64,000 bases of DNA from Lichina pygmaea (Eukaryota > Ascomycota > Lichinomycetes > Lichinales > Lichinaceae), in assembly GCA_963422465.1 (NCBI GenBank), contig OY730175.1, positions 124,001 through 188,000 of the forward strand, in the 5' to 3' direction. Positions within the stretch are counted from its first letter, which is position 1. Every line of letters starts with the position of its first letter. Shown here in pieces: positions 1 through 44,065 of the stretch. A program made the position numbers and the translations under genes. A model generated the notes under the pieces. It saw only the letters and a program-made list of their open reading frames with translations. It was not told where the DNA came from and ran no database searches.

Positions 1-1566
1 CGCCAGCTCTCGTCCGTCTTGCGATCCCTGATCATGAGGACGCGTCTCAGGCTGCCTTCACGCGCGCCGAGGTTGGCTCCCGACGTCGTCGATGAGACCT
101 TGGTCCCGGCCTTCTTCGCGGTCGGGATCGCGGCTGGCTGCTCAGAGCAGGAGCTGGACTTGTAGAGCTTCGCCGCACCCTTGGCCAGCAGCTGGGCCGT
201 CACCGAGCCCTCGAGGCCGCGGAAGAGAAGAAACTGCGAGGCGGCCCCATCGGGCGAGACGTCACTGTCGCCCGTATTGGTATATAGGTAGGGTTTGGCA
301 TCTGCGGGTACGGCATCTGGAGTGCAGTGAGTACTCTCTCGGCCCAGGTCCCGCCGCGTCGACTCACCGGCTCGATGACTCTGGCAACTGCGGCATTCGT
401 TTCGGCGAGCGTAGTTGGCAAAGGAGCACTAAAGAGAGATGAGCAGGGATTGGGAAGAACTTTGCTTCGTCGGACCTACCACCTGACAGGTCCACTCTTC
501 GTCCAGCCGGCTAGGACGCTCGCGATCGTCTTTCTCGCGGCAGAACGATACACGGACCTTGGTCGCCTGATCGCTCCGAGAACCCTTCCTATTAGTCCCG
601 CCGTTGCCGTAAAGGTAGATGGAAGGGTATGCCCGCTCGAGAAAAGCTGTTGCTGCCTCGACGGAGGCAAAATGCAAGAACCCGAATTGACGAGAGGCCC
701 CTGGCACCAGACTTTCGGTAAATGTTCGTCAGGCTGGCCACGGTCCGAGAGAGCGCCTACCCGTCTGTCGATCTTTGATGACCCTGACATCCTCCAGCCC
801 TTCGACGTGGTATCCTTGGTGCAGTTCTTCCGTGATCTGTGGTCCTTCGATGCGTTGGCCCGTCCGGCCAAACCCTACGCCTTAGCCACAGTATTCCAAC
901 AGCGCACGGTCGCGGACACTTAGGCTGCATGCTGCTGCCCCAAGCGATCGAAAACTGAAAGGTGGAACGGGGTGGTGTCCAACGTCGTTAGAATCCATAT
1001 CGGGCGGTAAGCCCTCCATGATCACGTCCCTGCTTGGCGAGCCTCCATAGTATGGCGACGAGCTCCGGTGTCGAGCCCGGCTCACGCTGCGGCTTTGGCT
1101 TCGGCTTCGGCTGTCGTAGCCGTAAGAGCGGTGGTGGTCTTCTCGGTCCCAGTCTCGGTATCGGCCGCGGCGACCCCTCCCCGACGAAGGAGATCGAGCG
1201 CGTCGTTGAACGTCGCGATCTCGGCTGTGGTTTCGTGCACGGTCCTGATCACGACGGGCATCCCAGTCCCGATAATAGCCTCTGCTGTCATCGTCGCTGC
1301 CAGGACGTCGGCGATCCCGGTAGAGGTCTTCCTCCAGCAAGATAGCGCATTAGCCAAAGCCAAGCCTCCGAGAATCACTCGTCTCAGTCCTGATTACCAT
1401 GAGGCGGAGAATAACGCCTTGGCGACGGTGGGCTTCGACGGTCAAGGTCCGGCTGAGGGCGTCGGCTGTCGCGGTAGGATGCTCTTCCAAAGTCACTCTG
1501 AGCAGTGGGATATCGATGATGATCCCCGGAGGACTCCCGGCCAACTTGCGGCCTGTACGATGACAT
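1..1566 (-). CDS. RBM5/RBM10-like RNA-binding splicing regulator (3' end beyond the window)
   Basis: Predicted nuclear RNA-binding protein acting in pre-mRNA splicing. The start ATG is at 1566 (MSSYRPQV). An Arg/Ser/Asp-rich N-terminus (RDRDVQRRARSPSS, SRSRSQSRSVSRARHRS) spans exons 1 and 2, split by an intron whose donor is near 1398. RRM1 begins with VIMEGLPPDMDSND, continues after an intron with ITEELHQGYHVEGLEDVRVI and after another with ASRQFGFLHFASVEAATAFL. A RanBP2-type zinc finger follows, also split by an intron: EEWTCQ, then CSFANYARRNECRSCQ, giving C-x-C and C-x2-C pairs. A second RRM starts with QFLLFRGLEGSVTAQLLAKG and LRRVLMIRDRKTDESWR, where the window ends. RS region, RRM, RanBP2 finger, RRM is the RBM5/6/10 order. 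The C-terminal OCRE and G-patch parts would lie to the left and are not seen. The family call is firm; the exact exon edges are inferred. Confidence 0.8.
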
Positions 1567-1870
1567 TTTGAACGGACAGGAAAGGTCTGGAGGACGTCTA
1601 ACGTATCTGGCCCGACTGGTAGCTTCAAGTGTGGCTGATCTACGGGTAGGGGCAGGCCCATGATTACTAATCAACGTCAGCTGTACCGTGCCGGAGGCCT
1701 TGCTTATCTAAGCTACCGTACCGTATTTTGTACTTGGTACGAGAAGACTACTCGTACATACTGTACTCCGTACGTACGTAGTACTCTCACTGCTCTCACG
1801 ACATAAACACTGACATTTCGTCGCTATAAAAACCGTCAACAGTCTTACACTACGTATATAGAAAGCCGCC
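1567..1870. promoter_or_regulatory. Shared divergent promoter region
   Basis: About 300 bp separate the divergent RBM5-like and molybdopterin synthase starts. The interval is rich in GTAC/TACGTA motifs (about 1720-1785). A TATA-like stretch (cgctataaaa near 1822) lies about 45 bp upstream of the MoaE-type ATG. No other gene is seen. Confidence 0.5.
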
Positions 1871-22174: not shown

Positions 22175-22369
22175 TGTTGAAGTTGGGCGATCTGCAACGT
22201 CATACCACGTGACTTACAGAAGGGCGCTAACCCTAGATTGGGAGGAAGGAAGGTTTTCTCATTTTTCATTGTAGACGAATGTCTTAGTACATCCTATTGA
22301 ATACAAGATCCTATTGTCTTCGAAGTGCCTCGTCATTCTGAAGTGTCACCGACACCGATTATCCCAACA
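22175..22369 (+). repeat. Copia 5' LTR (195 bp)
   Basis: Begins TGTTGAAGTT, ends CCCAACA; nearly identical to 43865-44060. Nearly every difference is a CpG here that is TpG or CpA in the right copy (for example GGGCGATC versus GGGTGATC), with one extra T in a T run at right. Confidence 0.93.
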
Positions 22370-22384
22370 GGTTATGAGCCCGGG
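22370..22384 (+). other. Copia primer-binding site complementary to the initiator tRNA-Met anticodon arm
   Basis: GGTTATGAGCCCGG directly follows the LTR. It is complementary to CCGGGCTCATAACC, the anticodon stem-loop of eukaryotic initiator tRNA-Met. This is the half-tRNA priming used by Drosophila copia, as opposed to a tRNA 3' end. Confidence 0.75.
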
Positions 22385-23868: not shown

Positions 23869-24416
23869 TGTTACGACCCAGGGATGGGAGCCACTCATTT
23901 ATAGGCAATCAGGCCGCGGGCCAGGCAAGAGGACACCATGGAAGTCAAGTGACCAACCAACAAGGGGTCACGTGACTGTCGAGACACACACGGGAGTCTC
24001 GACGCATGATGCATGAAGCATCGAGACAATCTCACCAGTCTCGACGCATGATGCATGAAGCATCGAGACAATCTCACCAGTCTCGACGCATGATGCATGA
24101 AGCATCGAGACAATCTCACCCGTCTCGACGTCGAGACTGTCGAGACAATCTCGATCATCTCGACAGGCCAGCACTATATAGTCCGGCGATAGTTCCCTTA
24201 TGGAACGATCGTCTTCAACTCATGTTGTGATCCAGACAACTAGATCTACTTCAATATAATCCTTTGTACGAAGCCATTGATCAGGTGTCACCACCACCAC
24301 GTTCCACCAAACCCCTTCGCGCTCCTTGACACTCCTCTCCTGCGAGAACCAACCCGCCTTCCGCCTCTCGCCCTAATCCTATACTCGGATAGGACAGTAC
24401 GGTACGGACCGCAACA
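23869..24416 (+). repeat. Element A1 5' LTR (548 bp) with U3 tandem repeats
   Basis: TGTTACGACC...CGCAACA. U3 holds three tandem copies (about 43 bp) of an inverted-repeat unit at 23990-24130, with arms GTCTCGA and TCGAGAC around gcatgatgcatgaagca. Sense TATA at 24175-24180. U5 is shared with element A2, while U3 upstream of the TATA is not. Confidence 0.93.
24175..24218 (+). promoter_or_regulatory. A1 core promoter and predicted RNA 5' end
   Basis: TATATA at 24175-24180 is followed 36 bp later by GTCTTCAA (24211-24218). That octamer is complementary to the primer-binding octamer TTGAAGAC at 24419-24426, so transcription is expected to start close to 24211. Confidence 0.6.
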
Positions 24417-24418
24417 CT

Positions 24419-24426
24419 TTGAAGAC
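24419..24426 (+). other. A1 self-priming primer-binding site
   Basis: TTGAAGAC lies 2 nt inside the 5' LTR and pairs with GTCTTCAA at the predicted RNA 5' end. This matches the Tf1-type self-priming mechanism; I see no better tRNA 3'-end complement here. Confidence 0.6.
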
Positions 24427-24434
24427 CCTCAAGG

Positions 24435-25934
24435 ATGAGTACCTTAGGAGTAACCAACCCCAACTTCCCAGATGGAAAGATTAGCGTCGCCAAGCCAGAC
24501 CTGTTCTACGGCGAAAGAAACAAGGTTGACGACTGGCTCATGCAACTCCAAGTCTACTTTCAATTCCAACCAGAGACAAAGCTGCCTAAGGAAAAGTGGC
24601 CCCTCTTTGCAACCACTTATATGAGAGGCAATGCTTATCAATGGATCAAGCCCTACGTCAACAAACATCTCTCAGGAAACAGAGACCACGACAGCACAAC
24701 AGAATGGATGACGAAATGGACGTGATTCAAGGACGAGATCAAAAGGATCCTTGGACCATCTAACAAAGACAAAGTGGCTATACGAATGATCCAGCACATC
24801 AAACAACGACGCTCAGCCGCAGAGTACACCACGCAGTTCAAACAATACTCAGTACTGACTGACTGGGACGATGACACCCTGATGGTCATGTACTGACGTG
24901 GACTCAAGGAAAACATGAAGGATGAAATCACCTTCGACGGACAAGCAGTCGACACACTGGACGAACTCATCGCACAAGCAATCGACATTGATGACAAACT
25001 ATTCGAGCGAGCGATGGAGAAACGCCACGACGGAGGATACAGCCGCCCCGCATGGCATGTGAGCAACCACTACAAGCCGCCTAACAAGGCACCGCCACAT
25101 GATCTATATGGCTATGCACCCATGGAACTGGATGCAGTCCACCACAAGGGAAGGTTCACGAAGGGAAGGAACAACAAAAAGAGGAAAGCACTGAAGTGCT
25201 ATGCCTGTGGCAAGCTAGGCCACATGGCGAAAGACTGTCGTTCAAAGAACAAGGTGCACCGACAGCAACTTAATACGCTCGACGGAGACTGGAATGTCAT
25301 CAAGCCAGAGGACCCACCAGGAGAGGCTCAGCTATCCCTCGAACAATGGGACAACTACGATCAGACATTGGAAGCAGCCCACCAACTGGCAACATCAGAA
25401 GGCAAGGACCTACCAGAACTAACAGGTCAGGACAAGGGACAGGAGCCCTTAACCACCTCTGATGGGGACTGAGACGAACCCGCGTCTATCAAAGAAGAAA
25501 TACCACAAGGAAGCTATGCTTACAGCATGGACTCACGAAATCTACAGCACGGCGAACTACAGTGGAGGTTTTGCACGAAGCACTACTGCACCTACCACGA
25601 ACAACTACGAAGGTACGGAGGACATTCACCCTACCACGCCACCTGCCACAAACATTGGGTCAATTGCGAGAAGGATGCGTGTGAGATCCACCTTTGGGAC
25701 AAACGCCAACACACTGCATTCCCCGGGCACACACATGATTGGCACGAACACCTCATGTTCCTACAGCAAGGTGACAACCACAACTGCTACGTCAACAATT
25801 GGCAGTACTGCCTCAAGCCTGGATGTGACAAGCATCAGCAAGACAAATTCATGAACAGATTCCTCAGGACTGATGGGAATGGCTGGACCCATTGCCCAGT
25901 CAGTGGAAAGACACTTCAATCAGGAAAAGACTGA
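24435..25934 (+). pseudogene. A1 gag with CCHC knuckle and Cys/His-rich extension
   Basis: Starts MSTLGVTNPNFPDGKI at 24435. Capsid region includes RNAY.WIKPYVNKHLSG-like text; stops interrupt it at about 24723 and 24895. The knuckle CYACGKLGHMAKDC is at about 25198-25240. A stop at about 25470 (SDGD stop) is followed in the same frame by a second segment to 25934. That segment is unusually rich in Cys and His: FCTKHYCTYHEQ, TCHKHWVNCEKDACEIH and NNWQYCLKPGCDKHQQ. The latter may be a separate metal-binding domain between Gag and protease. The stops after VMY and SDGD and the end after SGKD are also present in A2. Confidence 0.85.
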
Positions 25935-28900
25935 ACTCCCTTGTCAAGGGGCGACATCGGGAGCTCAACAACATGACCCCTAGCAACGCAAAGCACCTGC
26001 GATTGCCTGTGTCACTACACGCCAACACGCCAGTACGGACATACGCACTTGTTGACTCTGGAGCCAGTGGAAACTACATTTCAAGACAACTTTACGACAC
26101 CCTCGGCACTGGAAGGAGACGCAAGCAGCAGCCCTATCAGCTCGCGATGGCAAATGGACAGACAGAGCTAGTCTGCCATGAGACGCAGCCAATGGAAATG
26201 GTTACCAGACACTATGCTGAAAGAATCCACCTTGATATTGTCGAGTTGGCCACTCAGGATATCTATTTGGGGATGCCTTGGCTAAAGAAGCACAACCCAG
26301 TTGTTAACTGGAAGACAGGAGTACTCACGTTTAGGAACTGCACTAACAACGCAGCTCGGACCTGTTACCAGCCGCAGAAGGCGTGGACAGATGAGGGAAG
26401 GAGTCCTCAGTGGAACCTCACCGACAGAAAGGACAACTCTCAAGAGAAGAGGTCTGCCTCGACAGGCACACCTCAGAACCAGGTGGCCAAACAGTCAGAG
26501 ATGAAGAGAGAGGAAGTTGTTAACCCTCTGGAGATCCCTGAAGAGTACCGACCTGGGTATGATAACCTCTTTCAGGAAGAGACAACAACAGCAGTGTTGC
26601 CTAAGCACCAACCTTGGGATCATGAGATCAAGTTGCAACCAGGGACAGAGCCAGGATTTGGACCAATTTACCAGTTATCAGAGAAAGAGCTCCAAGTACT
26701 TCGCGAGTACCTGGAGGAAAACCTGAAAAAGAGTTTCATTCAAGAATCTCAATCGCCAGCAGGATACCCGATACTATTTGCACCAAAGAAAGATGGAAGT
26801 CTTCGACTTTGTGTGGATTACAGGAAACTCAACGACATTACCATCAAGAATTGATATCCGCTGCCAAATGCGAACAAATTGCGAGACAGGATCAGCCAAG
26901 CTACAATCTTTACCAAGCTAGACTTGAAAGGAGCATACAACCTGATACGCATGAAAAAAGGAGAAGAATGGAAGACAGCCTTCAGAACCTGATACAGACA
27001 CTACAAGTATCTGGTTATGCCATTCGGACTCACAAACACACCAGCAACATGTCAAGCATTGATCAACAACATCATCAGAGCACACCTGGACCAAACAGCT
27101 ATCGCCTACCTGGACGACATTCTTGTCTACTCGAACACGCAACAAGAACATACCAAACATGTGAAGGATGTTCTACGATGCCTACAAGAGGCAGGGCTCA
27201 AGCTCAACCCGAAGAAATGCGAGTTCAACAAACCAGAAGTTGAATTCCTCGGATACATCATAGGGATTAAAGGGATCAAGATTGACCCTGAGAAAATCAA
27301 AGCGATTCAGCAATGGCCAACACCAACATCAGTTAAGGAAGTACAAGCCTTCCTAGGATTTGCCAACTTCAACCGACAGTTCATCAAGAACTACTCACAG
27401 ATGGCAACACCACTGACAGAACTCACGAAGAAGGACGTGGAGTACTGGTGGACAGAGAGACAACAAAAAGCATTCCAACAGCTCAAGGACGCTTGCGCCA
27501 AGGAACCAGTTCTCCTCAACTTCAAGACAGGCCAACCGACGCGAATCAAGACAGACGCTTCAGATCAGGCAGTGGGAGCATGTCTATGCCAACAGGCAGA
27601 CAGCAAGTGGCACCCAGTTGCCTACTACTCACGAAAAATGACACAAGCGGAACGAAACTATGATATCCACGATAAAGAGCTACTGGCAGTCGTCAACGCA
27701 CTCGAACACTGGAGAGTGTACGCGGAAAGCAGTTCTGAACTCACCATTCTCACAGACCACAAGAATCTGACAACGTTCACGACAACCAAGAAGCTGAACA
27801 GACGGCAAGTCAGATAGGCTGAACTCCTAGGGCAACACAAGTTCAAGATCTTGTACACCCCTGGACAAGACAATGGGAGAGCAGACGCACTAAGCCAACG
27901 AAAAGACCACATGGAAGATGATGAACGCCAAGGAACAATCTTACAGCAGGACTAGCAAGGAAACCTGGTGCCTCAACCACAGATCAACAAGCTCACGGCA
28001 GAAGACACTGAAGAACTAATAAGGAACTACCATGATAACCCAGCACACGGTCACCCAGGAATCTCCAAGACCACAGACCTTATCTAACGGGCAGGGAACA
28101 ATGTCATTAACCTCCGACAACATGTCACAAACTACATCAGCAAGTGTCTACTATGCCAGAAAAACAAACATGGAAGACATAAGCCATACAGAGAAGGACA
28201 CCCGAACACGATACTGAAAGGCCTGTGGGAAGACGTGTCAATGGACTTCATCACAAAGCTACCCAAGTCCAAAGACCCAGTCACAGGAATCACCTACAAC
28301 TTGATTATGGTGATAGTGGACAGATTCACAAAATATCTAATAGCGGTACCATTCAAGGAAACCCACACAGCAGAACAGTTGGGACACCTCTTACTGGACA
28401 GATTGGTCAGAGACCACGGAGTTCCGATCACAATCATTACAGACAGAGATAAACTCTTCACATCCAACTACTGGAAGACAATCAGTGCAGCCATGGGAAC
28501 AAAACCCAAAATGTCTACGGCCTATCATCCACGAACCGACAGCCAGACGGAGCGAGTGAACCAAGTCCTGGAGACTTACTTACGGCATTACATCAACAAG
28601 ACCCACAGCAATTGGGCACAGTTATTACTGGTGGCACAGCTGGCAATCAACCAGCACAGATCAGACTCAACAAAGGAATCACTATTTTTTGCCAATTTTG
28701 GATGACATGCGAACATCAGGATGCCAAGCAGAGCTTCACCAAACACGGAGAAAGCACTCCAACACGACAAGCTCCTACGACAAACGCACACGATGATGAG
28801 GCACTACCTTCAAGAGACCTCAGAAAGAATGCAACGTCAAATGGACAAGAAATCAAAAATGGCACCTCAGCTAAAGAAGGGGGATAAAGTCTACCTCCTC

Positions 28901-29272
28901 ACAAGAAATTGGAAAACGAAGAAACCAAGAACAAAGAAACTGGACTATGTCAAGGTCGGACCATTTTCAGTCGAAGAAAAAACCGGACCAGTCAACGTCA
29001 GACTGCGACTACCGAGAGACGCTCGGGTACACCCAAACTTTCACATCTCAATGATCGAATTAGCCGACCAGAGCACACCCTTGCAGGAAACATTTCATTA
29101 CCAACCAGAGGAAGAACAGGAATTCGAGGCCGAACAGATCCTGAAGAGAAAAGGTCAGCGATACCTTGTCAAGTGGAAAGACTACCCAGACTCAGAAAAT
29201 ACCTGGGAGCCACTCAGGAACCTCGCGAACTGCCAGCTCTTCCTGCAGCAGTTCCGGCAGGAGCAGGACTGA
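25892..29272 (+). pseudogene. A1 pol: protease, reverse transcriptase, RNase H, integrase, chromodomain
   Basis: Shifted one frame from the gag extension. Protease [12 protein letters not shown] at about 26053. Reverse transcriptase from [18 protein letters not shown], including [11 protein letters not shown] and the active site IAYLDDILVY at about 27105. RNase H contains KTDASDQAVGACLC and the DIHDKELLAVVNALEHW segment. Integrase has the zinc-binding H-x-H region around NPAHGHPGIS, CLLCQKNK, then DFITKLPKS and MSTAYHPRTDSQTERVNQ. The final chromodomain reads FEAEQILKRKGQRYLVKWKD. In-frame stops occur near 26852, 26992, 27815, 27955, 28087 and 28702, so no full polyprotein can be made. Confidence 0.93.
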
Positions 29273-29714
29273 ACAGCTTGGCCTGCAGCGCGGACGCATC
29301 AATGACTGTCGCCGACAAGTTTTCACCATCCACCTCCATTTCAGCAACAAGGCACTGGAGCTTCTTCTTTGCTCGACCCTCAGCACCCTCAAGAACCTTT
29401 CGCTTTCGGGACACACAAGCCTGCAGCTCGGCAAGCTGCTCGACAAGAGCATCCCGCTTGGCCTCATCGACAGCCAAATCCTCGCGAAGGTTATCCCGAG
29501 TCATGTTCAGCGACTCCCAAGAAAGTGACACACAGGACTTTCTCTGATGAGTGCACTCAGCGCACTTCAACTTATCGTTGTTGTCAGACATTCGGAAGCA
29601 GGGCTTGTGGTTCAAAACACAGAAGTCACACGGAGCAAGTGACACGAAGTTATGATCACGGATCTGGGCTGCCAGTTGGTTTCGGTAAGCAGAGGCATGT
29701 GATTTTGCAGACAT
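29214..29714 (-). CDS. Antisense ORF of element A1 with Zn2Cys6-like cysteine pattern
   Basis: Intact 166-codon ORF on the strand opposite to gag-pol, starting at ATG 29714 (MSAKSHASAYRNQLAAQIRD) and overlapping the last 59 bp of pol. Six cysteines follow C-x2-C-x6-C-x11-C-x2-C-x6-C (PCDFCVLNHKPC, then KCAECTHQRKSC). This is the spacing of fungal Gal4-type binuclear zinc clusters, although the usual basic residues between cysteines are few. The second half (SWESLNMTRDNLREDL, RDALVEQLAELQACVSRKRK) is charged and predicted coiled coil, as in dimerising regulators. A TATA-like CCTATAAATG on the same strand (29786-29795) lies about 79 bp upstream of the ATG, inside the 3' LTR. The homologue in A2 has the same length. 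Function unknown; a DNA- or RNA-binding accessory factor is an inference. Confidence 0.75.
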   Translation of the reverse strand: MSAKSHASAYRNQLAAQIRDHNFVSLAPCDFCVLNHKPCFRMSDNNDKLKCAECTHQRKSCVSLSWESLNMTRDNLREDLAVDEAKRDALVEQLAELQACVSRKRKVLEGAEGRAKKKLQCLVAEMEVDGENLSATVIDASALQAKLFSPAPAGTAAGRAGSSRGS

Positions 29715-29758
29715 ACTCAAGAATTCATCAGGACGATGAATGAAGGAGAGGAGGGTAG

Positions 29759-30306
29759 TGTTACAACCCAGAGATGGGAGCCACTCATTTATAGGCAATC
29801 AGGCCGCGGGCCAGGCAAGAGGACACCATGGAAGTCAAGTGACCAACCAACAAGGGGTCACGTGACTGTCGAGACACACACGGGAGTCTTGACACATGAT
29901 GCATGAAGCATCAAGACAATCTCACCAGTCTCGACACATGATGCATGAAGCATCGAGACAATCTCACCAGTCTCGACGCATGATGCATGAAGCATCAAGA
30001 CAATCTCACCTGTCTTGACGTCAAGACTGTCGAGACAATCTTGATCGTCTCGACAGGCCAGCACTATATAGTCTGGCGATAGTTCCCTTATGGAACAATC
30101 GTCTTCAACTCATGTTGTGATCCAGACAACTAGATCTACTTCAATACAATCCTTTGTACGAAGCCATTGATCAGGTGTCACCACCACCACGTTCCACCAA
30201 ACCCCTTCGCACTCCTTGACACTCCTCTCCTGCGAGAACCAACCCGCCTTCCACCTCTCGCCCTAATCCTATACTCGGATAGGACAGTACGGTACAGACC
30301 GCAACA
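29759..30306 (+). repeat. Element A1 3' LTR (548 bp)
   Basis: Same length as the 5' LTR. Nearly all mismatches are CpG to TpG or CpA (for example TCTCGACGC versus TCTTGACAC). On the minus strand it carries the TATA used by the antisense ORF. Confidence 0.93.
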
Positions 30307-30311
30307 TGCAG

Positions 30312-31917
30312 ACACGAAGAAGAAGACCTGGCACTGGAGGCTAGGGCATGCAAGCAAGACTGTCATGAAGAGGGCAGCACTCACCAGCAAACTCAAAGGG
30401 TTCAAGTACAATGAGGAGATCATCAGACAACAAGTGCAGGTGCGACCTAAGGAGAAGGTCAGCATTGAGGGGGGGTGGCCACAGGTCACCTCAGTGCCTG
30501 AGCAAACCAGGACAGAGAGACAGGTGCAAGGCGTACCTGGTCAGCCGGAAAAGCCAGAAGAAGACTGTGATGAAGAGTCAGTAAGATACAACAAGAAGGT
30601 GACAGAAGACTCACCTTGGCAGCCCTGACAAGGAGTGGCTGAAGGAACAGTGGAAGCACCTGAGGAAGGAGCTCAGGAGTTGAACAAGTCAGAAGGAAGA
30701 GGTTGTGTGGAACCTGAAAGAAGTCCACAAGAGAACAGGGCCACAGGCAAGGCCACGAAGGAAGGGTCTGAAAGAGCACAGGAAACAGAGCCAGCAAGGT
30801 GGAGTACGCAGATCTGCAAGGCAACAGGGAAGGCAAAGGAAGGTGCCTTTGCAACAGAAGAGCAAGGTGCTGTGGCACCTGTACTGATGATTCCAGGGTT
30901 GTATGAAGAAGTGGTGAACAACATGGTTTTCAGACATGAATGGAGGAAAGCTACTGAGAAGGAATTGAGTCAGTTAGCAAGCTTCAAGACATGGAGACTT
31001 GAAGACCTACCTGCTGGAAAGAACCTGGTTAGTTCCAGGTGGGTATTTGACCTGAAGAAGAATCAGCAAGGGGAGGTCACCAAATTCAAAGCAAGACTGG
31101 TCGCACGGAGTTTCTCACAAAAGAAAGGAATTGATTACATCAAGATGTTTGCCCTGACTGCAAAGTACAACTCCCTGCAGATGCTATTAGCAATTGCCAC
31201 AACAGAGGACCTTGAGATCCACCAGGGTGATGTTGAGAGTGCTTACCTGGCTGCAGATCTTGACAAGGAGATCTTCATGGAACCACTGGAAGGGGTGGAG
31301 ACCAGAGGGAAGGTCTGCAGAGTGCTGAGAGGACTGTACAGACTGAAGCAGTCAGCCTGGCTCTGGAATAGGAGACTTACCAGTTTCCTATTGAAACATG
31401 GTTTCTGACAGCTGTCAACAGACTTCAGTATTCTCACAAAGGGGGGGATGAAGGAAGGACTCACAATACTGATCTATGTGGATGACTTGCTATTTATCAG
31501 TCCACATATAGAGCAGATCAACTGGGTCAAGAAGCTGTTAGCCAATGAGTTCAGAATCAAAGACCTTGGTGAGGCAAAGACAATCCTCAACATGCAGGTA
31601 ACAAGGGACTGGAAGAAGAGACAACTCACCTTGTCACAACCTGGATACACCAGGAAGGTTCTTGAGAGGTTTGGCATGACAGATTGCCACCCAGTCACAA
31701 CACCAATGGAACCTGGAGCAATAAAGGTGTTAGACAGGGTGTATAAGAAGGTGAAAGACTCACTGGTGGAATTAAAAGTGGACAAGACTTGATATCAAGA
31801 GGCAATTGGGTCACTAATGCACTTGATGGTCAGTACAAGACCAGACATTGTGTATGCAGTGGGAAGACTCAGCTGTTATTGTCAAAATCCAACAGATGTG
31901 CATTGGAAGACTGCCAA
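30312..31917 (+). pseudogene. Copia GAG-pre-integrase and reverse transcriptase remnant
   Basis: Copia sequence resumes after element A1. The pre-integrase motif TWHWRLGHASKTVMKRA is at about 30328. The integrase catalytic core is missing. A Lys/Glu/Gln-rich linker leads to the copia-type reverse transcriptase: EWRKATEKELSQLASFKTW, SRWVFDLKKNQQGEVTKFKA and DVESAYLAADLDKEIFMEPL, then LIYVDDLLF (about 31470), the catalytic box, which is intact, and SLMHLMVSTRPDIVYAVGRL. Stops at about 30628, 31408 and 31792 break it. It ends near 31917 in NPTDVHWKTAK, where family-B sequence begins. Confidence 0.88.
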
Positions 31918-34731: not shown

Positions 34732-35361
34732 TGTTGCGGTCCGTACCGTACCGTCCTATCCGAGTATAGGATTAGGGCGAGAGGCGGAAGGCGGGTTGGT
34801 TCTCGCAGGAGAGGAGTGTCAAGGAGCGTGAAGGGGTTTGGTGGAACGTGGTGGTGGTGACACCTGATCAACGGCTTCGTACAAAAGGATTGTATTGAAG
34901 TAGATCTAGTTGTCTGGATCACAACATGAGTTGAAGACAATCGTTCCATAGGGGAACTATCGCCTGGCTATATAGTGCCCAGTTCGTGAGCAGAGTGAGC
35001 TCTGCTCACTTTGCTCACTCGGTGAGATAAGTGAGCTCTGCTCACTTTGCTCACTTTTCATGCACGCTGCGGCGAGCAGGGTGAGCTCTGCTCACTTTGC
35101 TCACTTTTCATGCACGCTGCGGCGAGCTGGGTGAGCTCTGCTCACTTTGCTCACTTTTCATGCACGCTGCGGCGAGCTGGGTGAGCTCTGCTCACTTTGC
35201 TCACTTGTTCGTGCATATGCATGCTGCGGCGAGCACCCCCTGGTTTGTCTTGCCGGTCACGTGACCGGTTCCCGTGTCACGCTGTCTGGTACTTCTGTCC
35301 AGTATCCTGTCTGCTGCTTTCTGTGAGTATATAAAGACCGTGTTCCTCCTGGGTCGTAACA
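34732..35361 (-). repeat. Element A2 3' LTR (630 bp) with palindromic U3 repeats
   Basis: U3 (34985-35215) holds several copies of a 59-bp unit with the palindromic core GTGAGCtctGCTCAC followed by TTTGCTCACTT and CATGCACGCTGCGGCGAGC. The left copy has one extra partial unit compared with 40965-41155. Sense TATA at about 34965-34972 (minus), antisense TATA TATATAAAG at 35328-35336 (plus). Confidence 0.92.
35328..35336 (+). promoter_or_regulatory. Antisense TATA box in the A2 3' LTR
   Basis: TATATAAAG, 77 bp upstream of the antisense ORF start at 35405. The same arrangement in A1 has 79 bp, although the surrounding U3 sequences are not alike. Confidence 0.6.
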
Positions 35362-35404
35362 CTATCCTCCTCTCCATCTTTCATCATCTTGATGAAATCT
35401 GGTC

Positions 35405-35905
35405 ATGCTTCCAAAGTCACGTGCGACTGTTAGCCGAACTCAGCTGGCTGCTCAAATCCGCGATCGGGGTTTTGTTTCGCGTACGCCCTGCGACTTTTGT
35501 GTTCTCCGTGGTCGTCCGTGCTTCCAGATGCCGGGAGAAGACGATAAGTTGAAATGTGCTGTGTGCACTCAGCGCGGAAGGTCTTGTGTCTCTGTGTCCT
35601 GGGAATCTTTGAACATGTCCCGGGACAACCTCCGTGAGGATGTTGCCGCTGACGAGGCAACACGTGATGCACTCTTTGAACAACTTGCCACAGTGCAGGC
35701 TCGTCTGTCTCGGAAGTGAAAGGTGTTGGAGGGCGCCGAGGTCCGTGCGAGGCAGAAGCTTCAGTGCTTGGTGAAAGAGATGGAGTCGGATGGCGAGGAT
35801 TTGACTTGATCAGTCATTGACGTGTCCCTCCTGCAGGCTGAGCTGTTCGGTCCTGCTCCTGCTGAAACTGTCGCAGAAGAAGCTGGCAGTTCGCGAGGTT
35901 CTTGA
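35405..35905 (+). pseudogene. Antisense ORF of element A2, Zn2Cys6-like, two stops
   Basis: Homologue of 29214-29714 with exactly the same length (501 bp) and the same C-x2-C-x6-C-x11-C-x2-C-x6-C spacing (PCDFCVLRGRPC, KCAVCTQRGRSC). The first cluster here has more basic residues (RGRPC, RGRSC) than A1. Open to 35716, then TGA stops at 35717 and about 35806; both copies end in AGSSRGS. Protein identity with A1 is far lower than for pol, which is nearly unchanged between the elements. Confidence 0.75.
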
Positions 35906-38900
35906 GTGGTTCCCAGGTATTTTCTGAGTCTGGGTATCCTTTCCACTTGACGAGGTATTGCTGACCTTTCCTAGCCAGGATCTGTTCAACCTCAAACTCT
36001 TGTTCTTCTTCAGGTTGGTAATGGAATGTTTCCTGCAAGGGTGTGCTCTGGTCGGCTGGTTCAATCATTGATATATGAAAGTTTGGGTGGACTCTGGCAT
36101 CCCTTGGTAGTCGCAGTCTGATGTTGACTGGTCCGGTTCTTTCTTCGACTGAAAATGGTCCGACCTTAACATAGTCCAGTTTCTTTGTTCTTGGTTTCTT
36201 CGTTTTCCAATTTCTTGTGAGGAGGTAGACTTTATCCCCCTTCTTTAGCTGAGGTGCCATTTTTGATTTCTTGTCCATCTGACGTTGCATTTTTTCTGAG
36301 GTCTCTTGAAGGTAGTGCCTCATCATCATGTGCGTTTGTCGTAGGAGCTTGTCGTGTTGGAGTGCTTTCTCCGTGTTTGGTGAAGCTCTGCTTGGCATCC
36401 TGATGTTTGCATGTTGTCCAAAATTAGCAAAAAATGGCGATTCCTTTGTTGAGTCTGATCTGTGCTGGTTGATTGCCAGCTGTGCCACCGGTAATAACTG
36501 TACCCAATTGCTGTGGGTTTTGTTGATGTAATGCCATAGGTAAGTCTCCAGGACTTGGTTCGCTCGCTCCGTCTGGCTGTCAGTTCGTGGGTGATAGGCC
36601 GTAGACATTTTAGGTTTTGTTCCCATGGCTGCACTGATTGTCTTCCAGTAGTTGGATGTGAAGAGTTTATCTCTGTCTGTAATGATCGTGATTGGAACTC
36701 CGTGGTCTCTGACTAGTCTGTCCAGTAAGAGGTGTCCCAACTGTTCTGCTGTGTGGGTCTCCTTGAATGGTACTGTTATTAGATATTTTGTGAATCTGTC
36801 CACTATCACCATAATCGAGTCGTAGGTGATTCCTGTGACTGGGTCTTTGGACTTGGGTAGCTTTGTGATGAAGTCCATTGACACGTCTTCCCACAGGCCT
36901 CTCGGTATTGTGTTCAGGTGTCCTTCTCCGTATGGCTTGTGTCTCCTATATTTGTTTTTCTGGCATAGTAGACACTTGCTGATGTAGTTTGTGACATGTT
37001 GTCGGAGGTTAATGACATTGTTCCCTGCCCGTTGGATAAGGTCTGTGGTTTTGGAGATTCCTGGGTGACCATGTGCTGGATTGTCGTGGTAGTTCCTTAT
37101 TAGTTCTTCAGTGTCTTCTGCCGTGAGCTTGTTGATCTGTGGCTGGGGCACCAGGTTTCCTTGCTGGTCCTGCTGTAAGATCATTCCTTGGTGTTCATCA
37201 TCTTCCATGTGGTCTTTTCGTCGGCTTAGTGCGTCTGCTCTCCCATTGTCTTGTCCAGGGGTGTACAAGATCTTGAACTTGTGTTGCCCTAGGAGTTCAG
37301 CCCATCTGACTTGCCGTCTGTTCAGCTTCTTGGTTGTCGTGAACGTTGTCAGATTCTTGTGGTCTGTGAGAATGGTGAGTTCGGAACTGCTTTCCGCGTA
37401 CACTCTCCAGTGTTCGAGTGCGTTGACGACTGCCAGTAGCTCTTTATCGTGGATATCATAGTTTTGTTCCACTTGTGTCATCTTTCGTGAGTAGTAGGCA
37501 ACTGGGTGCCACTTGCCATCTGCCTGTTGGCATAGACATGCTCCCACTGCTTGATCTGAAGCGTCTGTCTCGATTCGTGTCGGCTGGCCTGTCTTGAAGT
37601 TGAGGAGAACTGGTTCCTTGGCGCAAGCGTCCTTGAGCTGTTGGAATGCTTTTTGTTGTCTCTCCGTCCACCGGTACTCCACGTCCTTCTTCGTGAGTTC
37701 TGTCAGTAGAGTTGCCATCTGTGAGTAGTTCTTGATGAACTGTCAGTTGAAGTTGGCAAATCCCAGGAAGGCTTGTACTTCCTTAACTGATGTCGGTGTT
37801 GGCCATTGCTGAATCACTTTGATTTTCTCAGGGTCAATCTTGATCCCTTTGATCCCTATGATGTATCCGAGGAATTCAACTTCCGGTTTGTTGAACTCGC
37901 ATTTCTTTGGGTTGAGCTTGAGCCCTGCCTCTTGTAGGCATTGTAGAACATCCTTCACATGTTTGGTATGTTCCTGTTGCGTGTTCGAGTAGACAAGAAT
38001 GTTGTCCAGGTAGGCGATAGCTGTTTAGTCCAGGTGTGCTCTGATGACGTTGTTGATCAATGCTTGACATGTTGCTGGTGCGTTTGTGAGTCCGAATGGC
38101 ATAACCAGATACTTGTAGTGTCCGTATCAGGTTCTGAAGGCTGTCTTCCATTCTTCTCCTTTTTTTATGCATATCAGGTTGTATGCTCCTTTCAAGTCCA
38201 GCTTAGTAAAGATTGTAGCTTGGCTGATCCTGTCTCGCAATTCGTTCGCATTTGGCAACGGATATCGGTTCTTGATGGTAATGTTGTTGAGTTTCCTGTA
38301 GTCCACACAAAGTCGAAGACTTCCGTCTTTCTTTGGTGCAAATAGTATCGGGTATCCTGCTGGTGATTGAGATTCTTGAATGAAACCCTTTTTCAGGTTT
38401 TCCTCCAGGTACTCGCAAAGTACTTGGAGCTCTTTCTCTGATAACTGGTAAATTGGTCCAAATCCTGGCTCTGTCCCTGGTTGCAACTTGATCTCATGAT
38501 CCCAAGGTTGGTGCTTAGGCAACGCTGCTGTTGTTGTCTCTTCCTGAAAGAGGTTATCATACCCAGGTCGGTACTCTTCAGGGATCTCCAGAGGGTTAAC
38601 AACTTCCTCTCTCTTCATCTCTGACTGTTTGGCCACCTGGTTCCGGGGTGTGCCTGTCGAGGTGGACCTCTTCTCTTGAGAGTTGTCCTTTCTGTCGGTG
38701 AGGTTCCACTGAGGACTCCTTCCCTCATCTGTCCACGCCTTCTGCGGCTGGTAACAGGTCTGAGCTGCGTTGTTAGTGCAGTTCCTAAACATGAGTACTC
38801 CTGTTCTCCAGTTAACAACTGGGTTGTGCTTCTTTAGCCAAGGCATCCCCAAATAGATATCCTGAGTGGCCAACTCAACAATATCAAGGTGGATCCTTTC

Positions 38901-39146
38901 AGCATGGTGTCCGGTAACCATTTCCATTGGCTGCGTCTCATGGCAGACTAGCTCTGTCTGTCCATTTGCCATCGCGAGCTGATAGGGCTGCTGCTTGTGT
39001 CTCCTTCCAGTGCCGAGGGTATCGTAAAGTTGTCTTGAAATGTAGTTCCCACTGGCTCCAGAGTCAACAAGTGCGTATGTCCGTACTGGCGTGTTGGCGT
39101 GTAGTGACACAGGCAATCGCAGGTGCTTTGCGTTGCTAGGGGTCAT
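35814..39146 (-). pseudogene. A2 pol
   Basis: Protease [12 protein letters not shown] at about 39060. Reverse transcriptase with [21 protein letters not shown] at about 38010 (Asp to Asn in the catalytic pair), stops near 38105, 38023 and 37741. From 37718 down to 35814 a 634-codon frame is open and covers RNase H, integrase and chromodomain (FEVEQILARKGQQYLVKWKG). Confidence 0.92.
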
Positions 39147-39184
39147 GTTGTTGAGCTCCCGATGTCACCCCTTGACAAGGGAGT

Positions 39185-40684
39185 TCAGTCTTTTCCCGAT
39201 CGAAGTGTCTTACCACTGACTGGGCAATGGGTCCAGCCATTCCCATCAGTTCTGAGGAATCCGTTCATGAATTTGTCTTGCTGATGCTTGTCACATCCAG
39301 GCTTGAGGCAGTACTGCCAATTGTCGATGTAGCAGTTGTAGTTGTTGCCTTGCTGTAGGAACATAAGGCATTCGTGCCAATCATGTGTGTGCCCGGGGAA
39401 TGCGGTGTGTTGGCGTTTGTCCCAAAGATGGATCTCACACGCATCCTTTTCGCAATTGACCCAATGCTTGTGGCAGGTGGCGTGGTAGGGTGAATGTCCT
39501 CCGTACCTTCGTAGTTGTTCGTGGTAGGTGCAGTAGTGCCTCGTGCAAAACCTCCACTGTAGTTCACCGTGCCGTAGATTTCGTGGGTCCATGCTGTAAG
39601 CATAGCTTCCTTGTGGTATTTCTTCTTTGATAGACGCGGGTTCGTCTCAGTCCCCATCAGAGGTGGTTAAGGGCTCCTGTCCCTTGTCCTGACCTGTTAG
39701 TTCTGGTAGGTCCTTGCCTCCTGATGTTGCCAGTTGGTGGGCTGCTTCCAATATCTGATCGTAGTCGTCCCATTGTTCGAGGGATAGCTGAGCCTCTCCT
39801 GGTGGGTCCTCTGGCTCGATGACATTCCAGTCTCTGTCAAGCGTATTAAGTTGCTGTCGGTGCACCTTGTTCTTTGAACGACAGTCTTTCGCCATGTGGC
39901 CTAGCTTGCCACAGGCATAGCACTTCAGTGCTTTCCCCTTTTTGTTGTTCCTTCCCTTCGTGAACCTTCCCTTGTGGTGGACTGCATCCAGTTCCATGGG
40001 TGCATAGCCATATGGATCATGTGGCAGTGCCTTGTTAGGCGGCTTGTAGTGGTTGCTCACATGCCATGCGGGGCGGCTGTATCCTCTGTCGTGGTGTTTC
40101 TCCATCACTCGCTCGAATAGTTTGTCATCGATGTCGATTGCTTGTGCGATGAGTTTGTCCAGTGTGTTGACTGCTCGTCCGTCAAAGGTGATTTCATCCT
40201 TCACGTTTTCCTTGAGTCCACGTCAGTACATGACCATCAGGGCGTCGTCGTCCCAGTCAGTCAGTACTGAGTATTGTTTGAACTGCGTGGTGTACTCTGC
40301 GGCTGAGCGTCGTTGTTTGATGTGCTGGATCATTCGTATAGCCACTTTGTCTTCGTTAGATGGTCCAAGGATCCTTTTGATCTTGTCCTTGAATCGCGTC
40401 CATTTCGTCATCCATTCCGTTGTGCCGTCGTGGTCTCCGTTTCCTGAGAGATGTTTGTTGACGTAAGGCTTGATCCATCGATAAGCATTGCCTCTCATGT
40501 AAGTGGTTGCGAAGAGGGGCCACTTCTCCTTAGGCAGCTTTGTCTCTGGTTGGAATTGAAAGTAGACTTGGAGTTGCATGAGCCAGTCGTCGACCTTGTT
40601 TCTTTCGCCGTAGAACAGGTCTGGCTTGGCGACGCTAATCTTTCCATCTGGGAAGTTAGGGTTGGTTGCTCCTGAGGTACTCAT
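39185..40684 (-). pseudogene. A2 gag with CCHC knuckle and Cys/His-rich extension
   Basis: Starts MSTSGATNPNFPDGKI at 40684. The capsid frame is open to 40223, where it meets the stop after VMY that A1 shares. It then runs 40204-39647 with the knuckle CYACGKLGHMAKDC and ends at the shared stop after SDGD. The Cys/His-rich extension follows (39592-39185: FCTRHYCTYHEQ, KHWVNCEKDACEIH). Confidence 0.88.
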
Positions 40685-40692
40685 CCTTGAGG

Positions 40693-40700
40693 GTCTTCAA
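40693..40700 (-). other. A2 self-priming primer-binding site
   Basis: TTGAAGAC on the minus strand, 2 nt from the 5' LTR edge. Its complement GTCTTCAA lies at 40902-40909, 37 bp downstream of the minus-strand TATA (40939-40946), as in A1. Confidence 0.6.
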
Positions 40701-40702
40701 AG

Positions 40703-41296
40703 TGTTGCAGTCCGTACCGTACCGTCCTATCCGAGTATAGGATTAGGGCGAGAGGCGGAAGGCGGGTTGGTTCTCGCAGGAGAGGAGTGTCAAGGAGCGC
40801 GAAGGGGTTTGGTGGAATGTGGTGGTGGTGACACCTGATCAACGGCTTCGTACAAAAGGATTGTATTGAAGTAGATCTAGTTGTCTGGATCACAACATGA
40901 GTTGAAGACGATCGTTCCATAGGGGAACTATCGCCTGGCTATATAGTGCCCAGTTCGTGAGCAGAGTGAGCTCTGCTCACTTTGCTCACTTTTCATGCAC
41001 GCTGCGGCGAGCAGGGTGAGCTCTGCTCACTTTGCTCACTTTTCATGCACGCTGCGGCGAGCTGGGTGAGCTCTGCTCACTTTGCTCACTTTTCATGCAC
41101 GCTGCGGCGAGCTGGGTGAGCTCTGCTCACTTTGCTCACTTGTTCGTGCATATGCATGCTGCGGCGAGCACCCCCTGGTTTGTCTCACCGGTCACGTGAC
41201 CGGTTCCCGTGTCACGCTGTCTGGTACTTCTGTCCAGTATCCTGTCTGCTGCTTTCTGTGAGTATATAAAGACCGTGTTCCTCCTGGGTCGTAACA
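40703..41296 (-). repeat. Element A2 5' LTR (594 bp)
   Basis: Pairs with 34732-35361. Length differs because the U3 palindromic repeat block has a different copy number. Ends TAACA next to the duplication CAACC. Confidence 0.92.
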
Positions 41297-43864: not shown

Positions 43865-44060
43865 TGTTGAAGTTGGGTGATCTGCAACATCATACCACAT
43901 GACTTACAGAAGGGCGCTAACTCTAGATTGGGAGGAAGGAAGGTTTTCTCATTTTTTCATTGTAGATGAATGTCTTAGTACATCCTATTGAATACAAGAT
44001 CCTATTGTCTTCAAAGTGCCTTGTCATTCTGAAGTGTCACCAACACTGATTATCCCAACA
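43865..44060 (+). repeat. Copia 3' LTR (196 bp)
   Basis: Pairs with 22175-22369. Followed by the duplication AGTAT. Strongly depleted of CpG compared with the left LTR. Confidence 0.93.
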
Positions 44061-44065
44061 AGTAT

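Follow-up and report, generated by a model that had tools for sequence, protein, structure and literature searches.

Antisense genes of LTR retrotransposons have long been noted, their function being described as unknown in the parts of PMC7264820 and PMC11963269 that deal with them. What such a gene could do for its element is the question raised by the stretch of Lichina pygmaea DNA analysed here (the window, 64,000 nucleotides in full), in which a reading frame on the opposite strand, termed the antisense ORF (aORF), lies behind pol in two Ty3-type elements (Table 1). The two elements lie in opposite orientation, each with two LTRs and a 5-bp target duplication (TGCAG for element 1, GGTTG for element 2), and their ORF pieces hold Pfam matches to gag, a CCHC zinc knuckle, aspartic protease, reverse transcriptase (RT), RNase H, integrase, and a chromodomain. 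In element 1, the aORF sits between the pol stop and the polypurine tract, overlapping the end of pol by 59 bp. The block with both elements is flanked by a 111-bp direct repeat (95%, 22262-22372 and 43953-44063), and a copia-like RT ORF was seen by eye between the elements at 30887-31408. The window also holds a carotenoid oxygenase gene, the named relatives of which, at about 52-60%, belong to lichen-forming and other Pezizomycotina.

Table 1. Features of the two elements, in window coordinates.
Feature	Position	Strand	Basis or remark
Element 1, type A, Ty3-type LTR retrotransposon	23869..30306	+	LTR ends and flanks; Pfam domains in ORF pieces
Block differing between types A and B (pol 3' end, aORF, U3)	29001..30100		alignment
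Chromodomain, end of element 1 pol	29132..29260	+	PF00385, E=6.5e-15
pol stop, element 1	29272		
aORF type A, 166 aa + stop	29214..29714	-	six-Cys Zn2Cys6-like region at residues 29-61, then helical region
Polypurine tract ahead of element 1 3' LTR	29739..29758	+	sequence
3' LTR, element 1	29759..30306	+	5' LTR at 23869-24416
Antisense TATAAA, U3 of element 1	29788..29793	-	79 bp before aORF ATG
Type A U3 array, 42-bp unit x3.2	29885..30019	+	half-site TCTCGA/TCGAGA, many CpG-decayed
Type A 33-bp dyad, four half-sites at 9-bp spacing	30021..30053	+	22/24 positions agree; 11 nt before sense TATA
Sense TATATA, U3 of element 1	30065..30070	+	
Element 2, type B, body as in element 1	34732..41296	-	LTR ends and flanks; Pfam domains
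3' LTR, element 2	34732..35361	-	5' LTR at 40703-41296
Type B 33-bp dyad	34986..35018	-	24/24 positions agree; 11 nt before sense TATA at 34969-34974
Type B U3 array, 50-bp unit x3.7	35031..35215	-	half-site GCTCAC/GTGAGC
Antisense TATATA, U3 of element 2	35328..35333	+	77 bp before ATG
aORF frame type B, 501 nt	35405..35905	+	in register; stops at codons 105 and 135
gag match of element 2	40223-40684		

The initial annotation described the aORF as a 501-bp ORF present in both copies and encoding a Zn2Cys6-like protein with a coiled coil, transcribed from a TATA box of its own in the LTR. The minus-strand frame of element 1 is open as described, whereas its counterpart in element 2 agrees in length, frame, and cysteines but is interrupted by two stops and is therefore not an ORF. 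The cysteine spacing C-x2-C-x6-C-x11-C-x2-C-x6-C recurs in both window copies, and both LTRs carry the antisense TATA at the distances from the ATG that had been given, the box being placed at LTR nucleotide 27-30 in 45/45 LTRs examined. Hydrophobic residues after the cysteines recur with a helical period (heptad power 59.5; permutation test, p=0.0024), but the power at 100 degrees is higher (68.1), so that the stretch may be a coiled coil or a plain amphipathic helix. A C-terminal motif, VIDASALQAELFGP with its variants, is conserved and could, as a guess, serve as a docking or activation motif.

Had the protein been peculiar to the window, homologues would be missing from other copies of the element family; at least 150 were scored in the genome searched (Lichina pygmaea, 32.47 Mb, 8 contigs), these being the best 150 of 514 candidates from a protein search of that genome, all at E 9.4e-85 or better. 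Internal stops, nearly all TGA, are present in 124 of the 150 (TGA only in 116, TAA or TAG also or only in 8) and absent from 26. In a codon alignment, all 24 stops in 45 type A and B copies stand at positions mostly reading CGA, and substitutions within types lie in CpG in 217/316 cases for type A and 199/301 for type B. Decay of the copies thus appears to go through CpG deamination, which is what methylated repeats would lead one to expect. L020 (C1:2424768-2425265) is a stop-free type A aORF with no recognisable LTR or U3 array after it, and in L052 and L054 the LTR beside an aORF of a third type, C, is inverted, its U5 end following the polypurine tract in L052 and interrupting the aORF near codon 27 in L054, an arrangement that would fit nested or self-integration.

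Selection on the protein, which the initial annotation had argued from the equal length and cysteine spacing of two diverged copies, is upheld by codon comparisons across many. The alignment comprised 46 copies (26 A, 19 B, 1 C), picked from those with few or no stops and remaining from 57 aORF matches once 10 duplicates of the same place were removed along with L054, in which the LTR cuts off the start of the aORF. Between types A and B (26 and 19 copies), dN is 0.210 and dS 1.250, giving a dN/dS of 0.17 that is approximate because dS near 1.25 is close to saturation; the corresponding ratios are 0.13 for A-C and 0.25 for B-C. Within types, the ratios are 0.65 (A) and 0.41 (B), as expected where decay after insertion dominates. 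When the window A copy is set against single B copies, the differences number, for example, 37, 31, and 81 at codon positions 1, 2, and 3 (chi-square p about 3e-7), and the excess at third positions is found in transversions alone in a comparison with a B copy (18/8/30, p=0.0015); CpG decay is therefore not its cause. All six cysteines are kept in 25/26 A and 19/19 B copies. As judged from these comparisons between copies, the aORF protein is under purifying selection, a neutral antisense ORF being ruled out by dN/dS together with the codon-position excess. The zinc loop between the second and third cysteines is type-specific, reading VLNHKP in 26/26 A copies, VLRGRP in 13/19 B copies, and VLRGQP in the one C row. 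Specificity might be confined to this loop, but the amino-acid differences fixed between A and B show no concentration in the zinc region, where they number 0.18 per residue, compared with 0.29 for the N-terminus and 0.17 for the helix.

The Zn(2)-Cys(6) binuclear cluster (PF00172) has the spacing C-x2-C-x6-C-x5-12-C-x2-C-x6-8-C. Six cysteines so spaced are found in the aORF family, the 53 members with a complete six-cysteine stretch reading 2-6-10-2-6 in 37 cases, 2-6-11-2-6 in 14, and 2-6-8-2-6 and 2-8-10-2-6 in one each, from which it follows that variation lies mainly in the loop between the third and fourth cysteines. The protein is Zn2Cys6-like in this spacing, but the Pfam score stays below the Zn_clus (PF00172) cut-off of 21 bits, the best relative, P0089, reaching 18.7 bits (E=0.0019) and P0083 14.2, with no match for the window protein P0001. 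Sequence searches of solved structures gave weak matches only, none to a Zn2Cys6 protein. Pfam scans of the aORF family at E up to 10 or up to 1 gave no match to PF04195, the Retand TRP28 domain, and Pfam scans likewise gave none to DUF1985 or DUF287, domains of the VANC proteins of VANDAL, a Mutator-type DNA transposon. Membership in DUF3716 (PF12511) was also rejected, P0002 scoring 13.8 bits against a cut-off of 22 as the sole match among the members scanned; a search of the genome with DUF3716 gave 14 places (9 over the cut-off), none at the listed aORF places when compared by eye, and the five that were inspected (L013-L017) are other genes.

Homologues of the aORF protein number 57 by one protein search and 176 by a profile search at E up to 0.1, those elsewhere in public sequence being 41-69% identical; the most distant relatives aligned (P0083, P0089, P0101, and P0105) are 41-49% identical to P0001 among the best 120 of 176 matches listed. 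Fourteen proteins of the P0007 type begin with an N-terminal read-through, NTILPFPSHCPNDFLI, before the methionine. It resembles NTTLLSFIHRPDEFLS, obtained by translating the LTR start and polypurine tract of the window A copy in the antisense direction. The best match of P0007 in the Lichina genome is 64%, because of which the P0007 type would come from another genome with the aORF in the same antisense place. The expectation that homologues lie antisense at the 3' end of elements is thus apparently borne out by the read-through of LTR start and polypurine tract.

Comparison of the two types divides the element into parts with different histories. The gag-pol bodies of types A and B are about 4% apart, whereas the block of aORF and LTR U3 differs by 23-39%; outside this block, body and R-U5 are about 96-97% identical. 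In 150-bp bins, elements 1 and 2 agree at 92-99% over 24251-29050, 87% over 29051-29200, and 97% over 30101-30250, with values of 77, 72, 67, 67, 64, and 61% from 29201 to 30100, where U3 gaps and repeat arrays align poorly. The first column informative for A versus B within 28824-29330 is 29001, and from there or from 29014 the B rows (19) and C rows (2) mostly resemble B, some rows (L051, L053, and L055 among them) being mosaic; in one comparison of the types over the block, the A set was taken without L020 and L027_346. Synonymous divergence in pol is 0.11 over 27401-28994 (527 codons) and 0.70 over 28995-29272 (92 codons), rising to 1.25 in the aORF, and the block is on this account older than the body. 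Faster evolution in place is disfavoured, since synonymous divergence itself jumps from 0.11 to 0.70 to 1.25 along one element. In a tree of bodies (20 A, 2 B, L034 being omitted for its different upstream sequence), the two bodies that represent type B are placed apart among A bodies, several nodes having low support, and mean body distances are 0.0416 for A-A (range 0.0265-0.0527), 0.0400 for A-B, and 0.0335 for B-B. In these alignments, the types are shown to share a body and to differ in the block of aORF and U3.

The U3 part of this block holds arrays of tandem units, 42 bp long in A and 50 bp in B and C. The U3 set comprised 45 sequences, being 47 less L020, which no LTR follows, and L027 at 346, which ends before the sense TATA. 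The 6-mer TCTCGA and its derivative by CpG decay, TCTTGA, are over-represented in A, as GCTCAC is in B and GCTCGA in C; with CpG decay allowed, the mean number of words per U3 is 13.7 for TCTYRA (24 A), 14.2 for GCTYAC (19 B), and 8 for GCTYRA (2 C), A and B U3s containing zero words of the other types and C U3s averaging 1 word of the A type and 2 of the B type. Pairs of half-sites within 30 bp stand 9, 18, or 27 bp apart in 358/377 cases in B and in 259/425 in A, the remainder in A being at 24 bp (the repeat unit) or at 8, 16, 17, and 26 bp at one junction. When spacings from 6 to 15 were compared in the first 8 A, the first 8 B, and both C sequences, only 9 stood out, in all three types.

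A scan that named no half-site looked for any four 6-mers following each other at intervals of 9 bp, the first two in reverse and the last two in forward orientation, with a maximum score of 24. The resulting dyad scores 21-24 in 45/45 U3s (24 A, 19 B, 2 C), which represent three lineages rather than 45 independent cases, the grammar having been picked after the sequences were seen. The majority half-site word in the A dyads is TCTTGA in 16/24 and TCTCGA in 8/24. Dinucleotide shuffles of 8 U3s reached the observed 22-24 in 0/200 trials each, the highest shuffles scoring 21; one of 13 body stretches scores 21, as do the two lowest A copies, and the scores of 900 mononucleotide shuffles and of 108 host stretches from the window stay at 20 or below. 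With up to 6 mismatches allowed in A and 4 in B and C, the distance from the end of the promoter-proximal dyad to the sense TATA is 11 nt in 16/24 A, 19/19 B, and 1/2 C copies (36/45), and 2 nt, one 9-bp step less, in 8/24 A copies. Word counts and spacings together show a type-specific half-site grammar, the predicted half-sites being TCTCGA (A), GCTCAC (B), and GCTCGA (C). The A and C half-sites hold a CpG, often decayed, and the B half-site holds none, a difference that may matter for silencing.

Across the whole genome, there are 1331 occurrences of the exact 24-bp B triple site, 2018 of a degenerate A site, and 22 of a degenerate C site, each pattern written backwards giving 0; degenerate A sites on the minus strand number 1043. 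On contig C1 up to 2.5 Mb, and among the matches listed, B sites lie within 700 bp upstream of 7/7 B-type and 0/18 A-type aORFs, the A-site list, in which minus-strand places end at C1:17099, being left out of this association test. The two C-type aORFs among 150 listed matches are about 0.4-0.5 kb from C sites, type C lending weak support because the LTR beside both of its aORFs is inverted. As the types are three physically linked lineages, the match of aORF type to half-site type amounts to three cases at most. As read from these genomic copies, aORF type is coupled to U3 half-site type, and this coupling is a stronger finding than the antisense protein first noted.

It is probable that the aORF encodes a putative LTR-binding regulator that moves with its element as a cassette together with its own operators. 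The product would be a small sequence-specific DNA-binding protein with a Zn2Cys6-like cluster and possibly a dimerising helix, expressed from an antisense promoter at the outer U3 end, and it would bind the 6-bp half-sites whose arrays, stepped at 9 bp, occupy U3 from the antisense to the sense TATA, thereby controlling in trans both promoters of the element family. Three or more types would have arisen by joint divergence of protein and half-sites, and aORF and U3 would have been swapped as one cassette between near-identical gag-pol bodies. A template switch near the 3' end of pol during reverse transcription could move the aORF and both U3s in one step, and, by the known mechanism of reverse transcription, both LTRs would then receive the new U3. 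Binding of these sites by the aORF protein, regulation, and the template switch are steps that we infer. The simplest layout would be a divergent promoter, with antisense TATA and sense TATA at the ends of U3 and half-site arrays between them, and this layout would suit an activator, an anti-silencing factor, or a repressor alike.

The chances that the protein is an activator or anti-silencing factor are judged to be about even, and a repressor giving subfamily-specific immunity is a reading of somewhat under even probability. A more tentative idea is that the cassette forms an immunity module, in which a subfamily repressor (or licensing factor) would act only on LTRs with its own half-site. 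An element gaining a new pair of protein and operator would then escape the control of resident copies, much as temperate phages do by means of their repressor/operator regions; such a module would explain that the cassette, rather than gag-pol, differs between co-resident subfamilies.

Other accounts would separate the protein from the sites. The aORF could encode an accessory protein selected for a different task (RNP, integration, nuclear entry), the U3 half-sites being bound by host factors and the two travelling together merely as neighbours at the 3' end. This is considered improbable: linkage alone would account for the association in A, B, and C, with one template switch moving both, and Tnt1, by the account in PMC1838419, is a known case of U3 diversifying while the body stays more constant, yet a host factor would be expected to preserve its half-site, whereas the 9-bp grammar and, in most copies, the 11-nt TATA distance are kept while the half-site follows the aORF type. 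It is very unlikely that the arrays are no protein sites at all and instead an RNA hairpin, or the result of slippage, within the 3' portion of the genomic RNA; although dyads with altered half-sites resemble compensatory change and the arrays are tandem repeats, a hairpin needs no identical same-side half-sites 9 bp apart and simple slippage yields no inverted orientation, and both features are seen in all three types.

That the aORF is a captured fragment of a host Zn2Cys6 gene, drifting without function, is hardly credible. Zn2Cys6 genes are common in fungi, but drift predicts a dN/dS near 1 between types, where 0.17 was found, homologues at 41-69% identity occur in public sequence, and the antisense place is conserved. 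An importance of the antisense RNA alone, for example as double-stranded RNA with an incidental ORF, would agree with the antisense TATA in 45/45 LTRs and with roles of antisense RNA discussed for other elements in part of PMC7264820. It is nevertheless rated as highly improbable, since the dN/dS of 0.13-0.25 between types and the third-position excess point to a translated product.

The putative LTR-binding regulator has partial counterparts in known systems, and the view of the initial annotation that an antisense retrotransposon gene of this kind is not established was too strong, as the published descriptions of Boty brtn and Retand TRP28 make plain. The antisense gene brtn of Boty-like elements was reportedly described by Zhao et al. 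in 2011 (Virology 417:248). Like brtn and TRP28, for which the term aORF-3R is used, the aORF is a conserved ORF on the opposite strand between pol and the 3' LTR. The Boty-like elements of Botrytis cinerea (brtn described in PMC7264820 and cited in PMC8365987 and PMC4227169) share with the Lichina elements this antisense place in a fungal gypsy-type element with a chromodomain, whereas a matched U3 operator cassette is not mentioned in the passages on brtn in these three papers. The TRP28 antisense ORFs of plant Retand elements likewise lie between pol and the 3' LTR, with predicted DNA binding, nearby tandem repeats, and a proposed regulatory role, but have the domain PF04195, and the relevant passages of PMC11963269 mention no type-specific half-site match.

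HBZ of HTLV-1 is a regulator made from an antisense transcript of the 3' LTR and acts on LTR transcription, according to the sections of PMC3185765 that treat it; for the aORF, a corresponding antisense transcript is predicted from the TATA in 45/45 LTRs. HBZ is a bZIP factor that works via CREB and p300/CBP, while the aORF protein is zinc-cluster-like with candidate sites of its own (PMC3185765, same sections). In the VANC anti-silencing proteins of Arabidopsis VANDAL elements, the protein co-diverges with tandem-repeated short target motifs, as set out in part of PMC5735166. Type-specific repeated motifs are present in the non-coding DNA of the Lichina elements too, as candidate targets; VANC differs in its domains (DUF1985, DUF287) and in that loss of methylation was shown by experiment (PMC5735166, same part). 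The Tnt1 subfamilies A, B, and C have a conserved coding region and a modular U3, but in contrast to the Lichina elements a regulator gene moving with U3 is not mentioned in the corresponding text of PMC1838419. In the open-access literature, searched partly by title, no report was found of an LTR element with an antisense regulator and a U3 operator motif moving as a matched cassette, nor, among the titles or abstract starts listed, of a retrotransposon antisense Zn2Cys6 protein, a zinc-cluster trans-activator of an LTR, or an element-encoded LTR-binding factor of this kind; papers on DUF3716 or on antisense zinc ORFs in fungi did not come up either.

For antisense genes, the Lichina genome provides a testable partner: three types each of protein and half-site, on a single conserved 33-bp grammar by the promoter. 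If retrotransposons do carry promoter-specific regulators of their own, it may be regulatory specificity that sets their subfamilies apart, which would bear on copy-number control, on silencing, and on the rewiring of host genes by LTRs.

Two smaller observations concern other potential sites and proteins. The palindrome GTCACGTGAC was seen by eye at 29857-29866 and 35256-35265, in U3 outside the type-specific arrays, and is present also in two C LTRs, with one base changed in L054; it is possibly a candidate site of a common host factor. At L017, one of the DUF3716 places, a cysteine-rich ORF with DUF3716 and an integrase-core (rva_4) transposase-like ORF lie tail-to-tail and antisense to each other at 890-1393 (+) and 1396-1779 (-), possibly giving the Lichina pygmaea genome a second antisense zinc-like protein in a mobile element; the DUF3716 frame is present in L015 too.
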